DNA from: Thermococcus sp.
Lineage (GTDB): Archaea > Methanobacteriota_B > Thermococci > Thermococcales > Thermococcaceae
Direction of reading: 5' to 3'
Assembly (NCBI RefSeq): GCF_017656495.1
Contig: NZ_JACDNS010000004.1
Coordinates: 1-64,000, forward strand
Length of the DNA: 64,000 nt
Position 1 is the first letter of the stretch; each line of letters begins with the position of its first letter. Both the position numbers and the translations under genes were made by a program. Below, piece after piece: positions 28,326-33,033 of the stretch. The notes below the pieces were generated by a model. The model worked only from the letters and a program-made list of their open reading frames with translations. It was not told the DNA's origin and ran no database searches.

Positions 28326-29258
28326 TCAAGGTAGCAAATCATTCGTGAATAAATCTGCTATAACTGGTGTCTGTTGTTCACAGTTTGCATAGGCATAGTC
28401 AAATGCTTCCTCAACTGTAACGTCTGAGGTTGTTGGGTCTCCATCATGGTCATAAACGTCTGCATAGCCAAGGTTAATGCCTTCAAGGAAGAAGTAGTAT
28501 GTGAACTGTCCGTGGCCCCACTCGGCGCTTTCGAGTGAGAACTCTCTTTCTCCAGATGCCATGGCTATTATTCTGCCGTCTGCTGCTAGGTCAGTCATTC
28601 CGCCTGAGTAGCAGCTGTCAAAGATGAAAATCACTCTGCTTGTTGGGAAGTCCTCAAACCATGCCTTGAGCTGTCCATCCCAGATAAGCAATATCTGTCC
28701 ATCAGGATTTCCATCGTGAACTACGATTGCTTCGTCAATTACTTCGTTGTCTCCATCGGCTGCTCTACCAGTTGAACCGTGACCGCTGAAATAGAAGACA
28801 ACTTCATCATCTGCAGTTACCTTTGATTTGAGCGTCATAATTGCATTATAGATGTTATCAAAGCTAGCACTCATGTTTATCAAGAGGATTATGTTCTCTG
28901 GTTTGAATCCATAGACGTTGACAAGGGTATCATAGACTAATAGCGCATCATCGTCCGTGTATTGCAGGTCATTTGAAGTTCCTGGATAATCTGCAATTCC
29001 AATCACGATTGCGTATTTTTCTCCGGCAACAGGTTCACCTAAAATGCCAGTGGCTGCTGGGCTTGTAGTTGAGCTTGGCGGTCCACCTCTTCTTGCGGCA
29101 GCTCTGGGAATATAGTCAAGTGTTATCTTCTTACCAAGGTGGACATCTTCTGCATAAAGGGGCTTTGAGAAGTCTATTTTAGACCTTGGCTGGGAAAGAG
29201 CCAGTGGCATGCTAAACAACACTATGGCTATTAGCAAGATTGCTGAAAATCTCTTCAT
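28326..29258 (-). CDS. Secreted caspase-like (C14/orthocaspase) cysteine protease
   Basis: A signal peptide (MKRFSAILLIAIVLFSMPLALS) precedes a short pro-region and a caspase-fold domain beginning EKYAIVIGIADYPGTSNDLQYTDDDA. The catalytic dyad is His in FYFSGHGS (about 160) and Cys in IFIFDSCYSGG (about 216). Asp-rich loops resembling EF-hand calcium sites occur at AADGDNEVIDE and YDHDGDPTTSDVTVEEAF, so calcium activation is plausible. GGTGAT lies just before ATG 29258, and a TATATA box upstream near 29285 excludes the longer frame. The substrate is unknown; export suggests extracellular proteolysis rather than cell death. Confidence 0.85.
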   Translation of the reverse strand: MKRFSAILLIAIVLFSMPLALSQPRSKIDFSKPLYAEDVHLGKKITLDYIPRAAARRGGPPSSTTSPAATGILGEPVAGEKYAIVIGIADYPGTSNDLQYTDDDALLVYDTLVNVYGFKPENIILLINMSASFDNIYNAIMTLKSKVTADDEVVFYFSGHGSTGRAADGDNEVIDEAIVVHDGNPDGQILLIWDGQLKAWFEDFPTSRVIFIFDSCYSGGMTDLAADGRIIAMASGEREFSLESAEWGHGQFTYYFFLEGINLGYADVYDHDGDPTTSDVTVEEAFDYAYANCEQQTPVIADLFTNDLLP

Positions 29259-29464
29259 GGACATCACCGTCACGAAGTATACATTGATGTATATAAATTT
29301 TTTCAATGTTTGGAGAATTTAACAACAGTTAAATACATTCACAAACTCAAAAACACTTATGATTGTTACTTAGTTAGGCTTGTGAGCATGGTTAAAGAAT
29401 ATCAACATTTCCACAGCCGAGAGTGTTATAAACTCTAAAGTCAAAATAAAATTTGTGAGCTAGA

Positions 29465-30848: not shown

Positions 30849-31560
30849 TTACACTTCAGTTTTTGTTCTCAGTTGCCAGCCATTAATGTTGAAGCCACCC
30901 ATTTTATTAAAGATGTACTTTATAAGTAATTCGAGGTTTTTTAGTTCCTTACTTTTCATAGCACTCAGGAACAGCCCAACAAATTCTTTGTCTGGAAATT
31001 CTTCGAACATGTAGGCTTTTCTAAACTTCTCATCCGTAAAGAGGCGATAAACTTTGCTTGCTGGTGGGCTTTCAACACATAAAAACTTCGAATAAATCTC
31101 AAGAGCCTTGTTAAGCGTTAGGTAATAAAGATAACTAATCCCAGAGAAAGTATTTGGCAATCTCTATCCAACTTCATTAGGCTTCTCAAAGGGCTTTTTC
31201 ATGTATTTCAACGCTTCTTTTTTGAGTTCTTCAGCTATTCCTGTCTTATCAAAGAGGACTTTGCCAATTGTGATAATTCTTGCAGTACTCCTTTTGTTTT
31301 GCTTGAACTCTTTTTCAAAATAATATTTAATTTGTTTTACTGGGTTTGCGAAGTATTCAATCAAAACACCATCTATAACGAGGTTCCCTCTCTCACGCCA
31401 GTCAACGTTATCAGAAAGCACGATGTAAACATCTACATCAGAGTATTTGGTTTGTAATCCAACAGAGGAATTTGTTTAAAGCAGATTGCCAGTTCATACC
31501 CGAAAGTATGCCGTGGACAGTTTTAAGTATTGCTTCATCTTTGTTTTTTAGAACTCTGTG
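30849..31560 (-). pseudogene. Broken nucleotidyltransferase gene (frameshift plus in-frame amber)
   Basis: On the minus strand one reading gives TKYSDVDVYIVLSDNVDWRE and then VIDGVLIEYFANPVKQIKYYF, a DNA-polymerase-beta-type nucleotidyltransferase core with the DxD metal motif. It continues to 31164, where a single TAG (31166-31164) interrupts it. The same frame goes on for 103 more residues (SGISYLYYLTLNKALEIYSKF) to 30849. Upstream, a segment reading KDEAILKTVHGILSGMNWQSALNK is in another frame, so a frameshift lies near 31470. No good ATG starts the upstream part. The gene is most likely inactive; sequencing error at two sites is the alternative. Confidence 0.7.
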
Positions 31561-31645: not shown

Positions 31646-31660
31646 ATTTTTATAATTTTT
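31646..31660 (+). promoter_or_regulatory. Promoter of the Cys-rich precursor gene
   Basis: CGAAATTTTTATAATT (31642-31657) is a strong BRE plus TATA pair. A start near 31680 would leave a 19-base leader that includes GGGGGAG at 31689-31695 before ATG 31699. Confidence 0.55.
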
Positions 31661-31698
31661 GATTGCAAATTTTATATGATAATCCGTTGGGGGAGCGA

Positions 31699-32391
31699 AT
31701 GAGGAAGAGGACATTGTTGGGCATTTTTGTGGTTTTGTTGGTGGTTGGAGCATATGCAGCGTATGCCTTGAACAATCCGAAGCTTCCAGAAGTTAAGGGA
31801 TGTGTGAATCCTTTTAGGGAAGTTAAGCCTGTTAGTAAAACTGCAGAGAACTGGTCAAGGATTCATGTGTTCTTTAAAGCGGTATTAAGCAAGGATATTA
31901 GAGGATTGGCAAAACCCTGGGAGATTGATTATAAAAACGTTAAAATAGTGAAGCACACCTTAGACTATAATGGTGAGAAGATAACCATGCTTGCTATGGG
32001 ACTGCCATTAAAAGACGGCAAGCATGTGATAGCTTACTACGAATTCTCAAAACCAGTACAAGGAGTCAAAACAAGAGCATTCTTATTAGGAATTCAAAAC
32101 GGCAAAATAAAAACAGAAGCATTAACAACAAATGGAGCAATTACACCAACAGGCACATGTAGACATGAGTGTTCAAGTAATTCCGACTGTGGAGAATTCC
32201 AATATTGTACCGACTATTGTTGTGAATACGACATAGCGAGTATAAGGGTGTGCTGTTTATCCTGTGTATGGGCACTTAGTGGAGGTATAGGTTTCTTTTT
32301 GGCATGTGTAATGGCGTGGTGTCCATATTGTCTGGCAGAATTTTGCGAAGAGGAGGGCACTACATGCGTGGACTATGGTGATGCTCCATGA
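31699..32391 (+). CDS. Putative halocin-C8-like bacteriocin precursor with Cys-rich C-terminal domain
   Basis: The 230-residue protein has a signal or anchor helix (RKRTLLGIFVVLLVVGAYAAYA), a polar domain of about 125 residues, and a C-terminal domain of about 78 residues that starts GTCRHECSSNSDC. That domain holds 14 cysteines around a hydrophobic Gly-rich centre (WALSGGIGFFLACVMAW). The layout, a long N-terminal region plus a short Cys-rich tail, is that of halocin C8 precursors, where the tail is released as the peptide and the front gives immunity. Homology is inferred from layout, not tested. A Dickkopf-like disulfide domain is an alternative. The stop overlaps the next ATG. Confidence 0.6.
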   Translation: MRKRTLLGIFVVLLVVGAYAAYALNNPKLPEVKGCVNPFREVKPVSKTAENWSRIHVFFKAVLSKDIRGLAKPWEIDYKNVKIVKHTLDYNGEKITMLAMGLPLKDGKHVIAYYEFSKPVQGVKTRAFLLGIQNGKIKTEALTTNGAITPTGTCRHECSSNSDCGEFQYCTDYCCEYDIASIRVCCLSCVWALSGGIGFFLACVMAWCPYCLAEFCEEEGTTCVDYGDAP

Positions 32392-32789
32392 AAAAAGCAA
32401 AAAATGATTTTAATTTGATATTATTTTTTATTTTCGTTTCAATATTTTTCCTCACTGGGATTGTCGAAGGGATTAAAATGGGTTTTTCTTTACTAATTTC
32501 GATGAAAATCTCTCTAACGGAAACACTTATACTAACGTTGCTTCCTTTATTCGTCATACTCTACCTCGAGCGACACCCCTCTTATAAAGAAATCTCGGGA
32601 TTAGTGGGTGTAGCTACTTTCCTGCTTTCATTTTTGATATTATATTCTGTGACCAACTGGATTGGGCCAGTCTTCATAATAAAACCTGATAAGCCATTAC
32701 TTGTATCAGCAAAACCTTTTCTTATGGGAAGCATGGTCGTAGTAATCTTGCTTATAATGAGTTTCTATGAAAAGAGAAGGGAAAGTTAG
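32388..32789 (+). CDS. Four-helix membrane protein, candidate immunity or export partner
   Basis: The ATG overlaps the stop of the Cys-rich precursor as ATGA, so translation is coupled. The 133-residue protein has four hydrophobic helices (about 10-35, 43-60, 72-98 and 108-128) and a basic end KKRRES-like (YEKRRES). No family is recognised. Small polytopic proteins encoded directly after a bacteriocin are often immunity proteins that protect the producer. That role here is inferred only from position and topology. No ribosome binding site other than the coupled overlap is evident. Confidence 0.6.
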   Translation: MKKAKNDFNLILFFIFVSIFFLTGIVEGIKMGFSLLISMKISLTETLILTLLPLFVILYLERHPSYKEISGLVGVATFLLSFLILYSVTNWIGPVFIIKPDKPLLVSAKPFLMGSMVVVILLIMSFYEKRRES

Positions 32790-32889
32790 GTGTGTCAACT
32801 ATGCTCCTCTCTTTAGAATAGCTCTTAAGATGGGGTGTTCAAGGTGTAGTATTTAAAGCGTATAGGAAGTTACCTTCTCATTTGCCTTT

Positions 32890-33033
32890 TTGCTGTTTGA
32901 TCTGTCCATTTCCGGATTTCAGAAACTCTTTGAACTAAAACACCCCAAGCTCAGAACTGTCGGAGTGGCAATTGGTATGATTTTCGGTGCGGTTATTATC
33001 TGGATCATTGGAAGCATCTGGGTCTTTAGGTGA
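32890..33033 (+). other. Short membrane-protein reading frame, remnant or tiny gene
   Basis: The frame ends with LKHPKLRTVGVAIG and the hydrophobic MIFGAVIIWIIGSIWVF before TGA at 33031. It reads back to TTG 32890 (47 residues); an in-frame TAG lies upstream at about 32859. A TATA-like ATTTAAAG at 32849-32857 would start transcription near 32880. It could be a leaderless TTG-start small membrane protein or the 3' remnant of a larger gene. The 100 bases between 32790 and 32889 hold nothing else recognisable. Confidence 0.3.

Follow-up and report, generated by a model that had tools for sequence, protein, structure and literature searches.

The halocin C8 family consists of secreted archaeal precursors in which a leader domain precedes a hydrophobic, Cys-rich peptide of 70-90 aa at the C-terminus, and immunity to the peptide is reportedly encoded by the same gene (PMC3831642). 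VARTIG islands of Thermococcales are hypervariable and built on large Ig-domain proteins, and their function has remained unresolved (PMC8416519). In polymorphic toxin systems (CDI, Rhs and archaeal PTS type), a large secreted protein bears an enzyme domain: its conserved N-terminal part serves delivery, the C-terminal effector varies, and the gene for the cognate immunity protein lies next to it. Displaced fragments of the tail and orphaned immunity genes also belong to their picture. Class II-type bacteriocins with dedicated immunity pair a small exported peptide with a small, coupled immunity protein. We know of no characterised archaeocin from Thermococcales, and the papers searched name none.

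Here we describe a locus in a 64,000-nucleotide stretch (hereafter, the window) of a Thermococcaceae genome of 2.05 Mb in 25 contigs. The general layout of its precursor is that of halocin C8; however, a separate, coupled membrane partner is proposed here in place of single-gene immunity. With polymorphic toxin systems, it shares the order of conserved N-terminal part, variable C-terminal part and adjacent partner gene, as well as the displaced fragments and orphans, but the precursor has only 230 aa and would carry a disulfide-rich peptide matched by a membrane-embedded partner; no delivery machine was found at the locus. The small peptide coupled to a small partner recalls class II-type bacteriocins, from which the locus differs by a much larger leader, 14-20 Cys, a cassette with no ABC transporter or processing peptidase, and an archaeal host. 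Like VARTIG, which occurs in the same archaeal order, it is made of membrane-associated modules that are hypervariable and exchanged, whereas a large Ig-domain protein stands at the 5' end of a VARTIG island and a Cys-rich-tail precursor with its own leader stands here; no Ig or other Pfam domain was matched in the precursor.

Architecture of the precursor and its membrane partner

The features of the locus are listed in Table 1. The preliminary description of this DNA had proposed a membrane-targeting start, a domain of about 125 residues and a Cys-rich tail, and all three are seen in the precursor ORF, the start as a hydrophobic segment; for this ORF a longer frame from the TTG at 31663 is also possible. 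Near the end of the hydrophobic segment, G17-A18-Y19 is invariant and is followed by A or G, and this GAY[AG] motif fits a putative signal peptidase site. The leader holds exactly one Cys, C35, in 27 of 28 sequences; the residue is single and unpaired, and its context, GCVNP, is not a typical lipobox. In an AlphaFold2 model of the precursor built from nine sequences (pLDDT 79), the leader forms a helix-plus-strand domain. Foldseek with this model returned nothing at E ≤ 0.001 in PDB or BFVD, and a PDB sequence-profile search gave weak matches only (omwaprin, E 0.2). Neither the precursor nor the partner matched a known family, including toxin or immunity families, in Pfam, NCBIfam, PHROGs or PADLOC, and a housekeeping-family match of the whole precursor was looked for with the same outcome. 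The invariant N145-G146 was considered as a cleavage site and is not put forward as one, since the model shows a turn there between strands 136-144 and 147-150.

Table 1. Coordinates of features at and around the locus, given as positions in the window.
Feature	Position	Strand	Basis or remark
TATA element of precursor promoter (putative)	31649..31655	+	match about 50 nt before ATG
G tract, probable ribosome-binding site, possible slippage site	31689..31693	+	5 G in the window, against 4-12 G for most homologues
Precursor gene, 230 aa, including stop codon	31699..32391	+	ATG start; ORF translation
N-terminal signal/anchor segment, aa 1-24	31699..31770	+	invariant alignment columns, hydrophobic
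Conserved leader domain, aa 25-153	31771..32157	+	alignment; helices and antiparallel strands in model; no fold match
Variable Cys-rich tail, aa 154-230, proposed effector peptide	32158..32388	+	begins at first tail Cys
Cognate four-helix membrane protein, 133 aa, proposed immunity protein	32388..32789	+	ATGA overlap with precursor stop; four hydrophobic segments
Truncated remnant of 3-TM protein, possible orphan-partner relic	32881..33033	+	84% over 50 aa, C-terminal half only
Decayed nucleotidyltransferase-like gene, neighbour only, outside the system	30849..31484	-	78% identity to intact 254-aa gene in G004

The tail encoded in the window has 77 aa and 14 Cys, with a mass of 8.5 kDa, a pI of 4.1 and a net charge of -10. 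The earlier figures of about 78 residues and 14 Cys stand, but the label "Gly-rich" was overstated, as there are 6 Gly in 77 residues. In all 29 distinct tails the number of Cys was even (14, 16, 18 or 20) and never odd, suggesting that tail Cys are gained and lost in pairs, as would fit disulfides in an exported peptide.

The stop codon of the precursor and the start codon of the four-helix protein overlap as described previously. Such an arrangement is rare in the window: a short protein with at least three TM segments, located at most 150 bp downstream on the same strand, was found for 1 of 66 ORF neighbours, namely the precursor-partner pair. Homologues in which the tail is absent or the membrane protein is never linked were looked for as evidence against the pairing; instead, a TM protein follows 28 of the 29 distinct tails. 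The partners among the homologues have 75-142 aa and 1-5 predicted helices, four being usual and not universal. Modelled alone, the window's partner formed four helices at low confidence (pLDDT 67, pTM 0.39). No close homologue of this partner was found, and its proposed role is thus read from the layout.

Distribution of the family

When 101 genomes were searched with the single sequence, about a quarter proved to contain relatives, either full-length or partial, the clear ones being all Thermococcaceae; the named relatives of the precursor come from Thermococcus, Thermococcaceae or Thermococci assemblies. In a profile search of 396 genomes, 46 genomes of Thermococcaceae gave matches, several of which were fragments; three genomes from a different family of archaea were also matched (E 5e-15 to 1e-24), and four further matches were marginal (E 0.002-0.008). 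Of the three distant homologues, two begin with a leader, and the third is a shorter frame. All three possess the Cys-rich tail (E 2e-5 to 6e-11 with a tail-only model) and have a membrane protein behind them, for which 1-4 helices are predicted; a leader-only model matched them weakly (E 0.004 to 4). Regarding carriage on mobile elements, no match was found among virus contigs (IMG/VR) or plasmids (PLSDB).

Co-variation of tail and partner

We compared 26 non-redundant loci, among which the mean identity was 68.5% for the leader, 43.6% for the tail and 25.9% for the partner, the partners falling into 14 sequence clusters. Similarity between tails was correlated with similarity between partners (Mantel r 0.63, p 5e-5), also when the leader was taken into account (partial r 0.62), and the correlation of leader and partner given the tail was not significant. 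The window and the sister genome G004 share 92% identity in the leader, 45% in the tail and 23% in the partner, and further pairs of loci have leaders 85-92% identical, yet tails of 28-50% and partners of 19-35%. The reverse pattern was seen between L004 and L010 (leader 55%, tail 80%, partner 46%). The co-variation of tail and partner, together with near-identical leaders that bear differing tails, indicates that tail and partner are exchanged as a unit under a common leader.

Orphan partners, tail stubs and empty sites

Remnants of other cassettes were found downstream of several intact ones. Specifically, the cassette in L052 is followed by a tail stub of 12 aa and by a partner that shares 95% identity with the cognate one of G011, a genome from another genus; L055 has a broken copy of the partner of G022 (95% over 83 aa); C-terminal tail fragments are present in L054, L059 and L082; and a partner of the L003/L012 type is present in L064, L065 and L067. 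L083 is also counted among the loci with downstream orphan tail fragments or orphan partners. G041 has no intact precursor but retains a tail remnant with its partner, and the complete genome G006 has no precursor match genome-wide but encodes a partner that shares 97% identity with the one in G004. In G002, the site of the window is empty between the adenosylhomocysteinase and TPR genes, and the cassette lies elsewhere. Two partner types were searched for in 136 genomes, and every copy found either belonged to a cassette, lay beside a tail stub, or stood alone. Retention of partners after loss of the precursor is a signature of immunity. The 3-TM protein whose remnant lies downstream of the window's pair has been kept whole in G006 and G022, where it neighbours cassettes or orphan partners.

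Taken across loci, the comparison shows that tail-and-partner cassettes are swapped by recombination beneath the conserved leader, with displaced stubs and orphan partners left behind. Comparative features of polymorphic toxin systems are thus found in this family: a variable C-terminus on a conserved N-terminus, a co-varying partner, and orphan copies of putative effector fragments and immunity genes.

A pair that serves type-specific recognition at the cell surface and is not toxic would also account in part for the co-variation and the orphans; in such a pair, a displayed Cys-rich tail would be read by the matching membrane protein for self/non-self or kin recognition, and nothing would be killed. 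The polymorphism, the co-variation and the N-terminal membrane segment fit such a pair equally well, and Thermococcales hold another hypervariable surface module, VARTIG, for which a role of this kind is also discussed (PMC8416519). However, the partner of G006 that has no precursor and the displaced partners behind other cassettes are best explained by protection, and a receptor without its ligand offers no evident benefit, so that we consider recognition without killing unlikely. We regard as very unlikely that the locus encodes a physiological pair, namely a disulfide-rich secreted protein binding a metal or another ligand with a small transporter or anchor. A Cys-rich secreted domain next to a membrane protein would suit this function, and none of the libraries searched names a toxin domain; however, such a pair would not be expected to occur patchily, to swap cassettes, to leave orphan stubs or to have hypervariable partners, and the even Cys number suggests disulfides rather than metal sites.

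Promoter region and poly-G tract

The position of the TATA element is conserved at -50 to -59 in most homologues, suggesting a 5' UTR of about 25 nt, and makes it likely that the pair has its own promoter, as claimed previously. Note that a scan for sigma-70-type promoters gave nothing above chance, this model not being apt for archaea. A G tract is located 3-7 nt before the ATG in most copies and comprises at least 7 G in 16 of 28 copies, whereas none of 355 other genes of these regions has at least 7 G within 18 nt of its start. The tract of the window is short and interrupted; further examples of poly-G are at 8033 in L052, at 7076 and 7609 in L054, and at 8205 in L053. G022 contains the 50-nt promoter/UTR twice, and the copies differ only in the tract, which is G7 in the one before an orphan membrane-protein gene and G12 in the other, indicating a real change of tract length between copies unless it is a sequencing error. 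Slippage at the variable tract could possibly control translation and so make expression tunable.

In L054 (7021-7410), the promoter, 5' UTR and poly-G tract of the precursor are repeated in front of an orphan membrane-protein gene, as though deletion of the precursor had brought the partner under the control of its promoter. Secreted beta-propeller-like repeat proteins with a C-terminal TM segment are encoded directly before orphan partners in L159 (3171-4349, minus strand) and L135 (2547-4151, plus strand), both in genomes without an intact precursor. The upstream gene in L135 carries the same promoter as the precursor and a G8 tract.

Flanking genes

The decayed gene noted beside the pair in the preliminary description is real: the nucleotidyltransferase-like gene is broken in the window, intact in the sister genomes G003 and G004, and partial in G006. 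A secreted metacaspase-like protein (Pfam Peptidase_C14, PADLOC caspase) is encoded at 28326-29306 on the minus strand. Within the genus, the metacaspase is found at this site only in G000, G003 and G004, which also have a cassette here, and is absent in G002 and G006. It was considered as a general processing protease and rejected because of its linkage in only these three genomes; no processing protease travels with the cassette.

Comparison with halocin C8

The halocin C8 model TIGR04449 gave no match in the source genome, whereas the control, Haloferax volcanii, was matched; hmmscan returned no match either. In profile comparisons by hhalign, tails aligned with E 0.25-0.44 and leaders gave no domain match, while a control pair of two halocin-C8 subtypes reached E 1.7e-12. 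Searched by hmmsearch with the tail model of the present family, halocin-C8 proteins stayed at background, unlike the distant family members (1e-5 to 1e-11).

TIGR04449 matched seven other Thermococcaceae genomes among 298 searched, most above the curated cut-off. True halocin-C8-domain precursors were thereby seen in Thermococcus at L087-L090, L092, L094, L095, L102, L103 and L105, some of them below the curated cut-off. They have two unrelated leader types, and several are directly followed by small TM proteins; judged by this layout, they look like putative peptide-immunity pairs too.

Although the shared layout (signal, leader domain, C-terminal Cys-rich peptide) and these TM neighbours could suggest that the tail is itself a halocin-C8 peptide, as the preliminary label had it, the silence of TIGR04449 in the genome and the lack of relation by hhalign and hmmsearch make this reading hardly credible. 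The precursor would thus work like the halocin-C8 type rather than be a demonstrated member of it. Cassette exchange, documented for the present family, is a further difference, and judging from the comparison, the probable bearer of immunity is the separate membrane partner rather than the leader domain.

Discussion

We conclude that the locus is probably one allele of a polymorphic, archaeocin-like peptide-toxin system with an immunity partner. The core idea put forward initially, that an accessory locus encodes a secreted Cys-rich effector and a membrane protein dedicated to immunity against it, gains strong comparative support: tail and partner co-vary, partners occur as orphans, some sites are empty or have kept only the putative immunity gene, and the Cys number is always even. 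The functions themselves are deduced from sequence. Several findings speak against a toxin: neither a toxin nor an immunity family is recognised, the cassette brings no processing protease with it, the window's partner lacks a close homologue, some partners have only 1-2 predicted helices, and the tail of the window carries a strong negative charge, whereas antimicrobial peptides are typically cationic.

As a peptide toxin, the precursor would be exported via its N-terminal signal, and the conserved leader domain would probably aid export or hold the tail inactive. A protease would then free the disulfide-rich, anionic peptide of about 8.5 kDa, whose hydrophobic, disulfide-held core may hit the envelope of competing strains. 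The four-helix partner, made from the same message, would shield the producer from its own tail type, as co-variation and orphans suggest. Tail-and-partner cassettes are exchanged under the conserved leader, as the comparison shows, leaving displaced stubs and orphan partners.

More tentatively, and with considerable doubt, these loci may belong to a widespread and previously unrecognised archaeocin system of hyperthermophiles, in which one leader is recombined with many disulfide-rich toxins, each with its membrane immunity protein, and tuning by the slippage-prone poly-G tract amounts to phase-variable peptide warfare. If so, anaerobic hyperthermophiles would hold around a dozen toxin-immunity specificities stabilised by 7-10 disulfides. 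Such a system predicts sensitive strains that have no partner, immune strains that have an orphan partner, and producers, and strain-versus-strain competition in hot vents would become directly testable with existing Thermococcus genetics.
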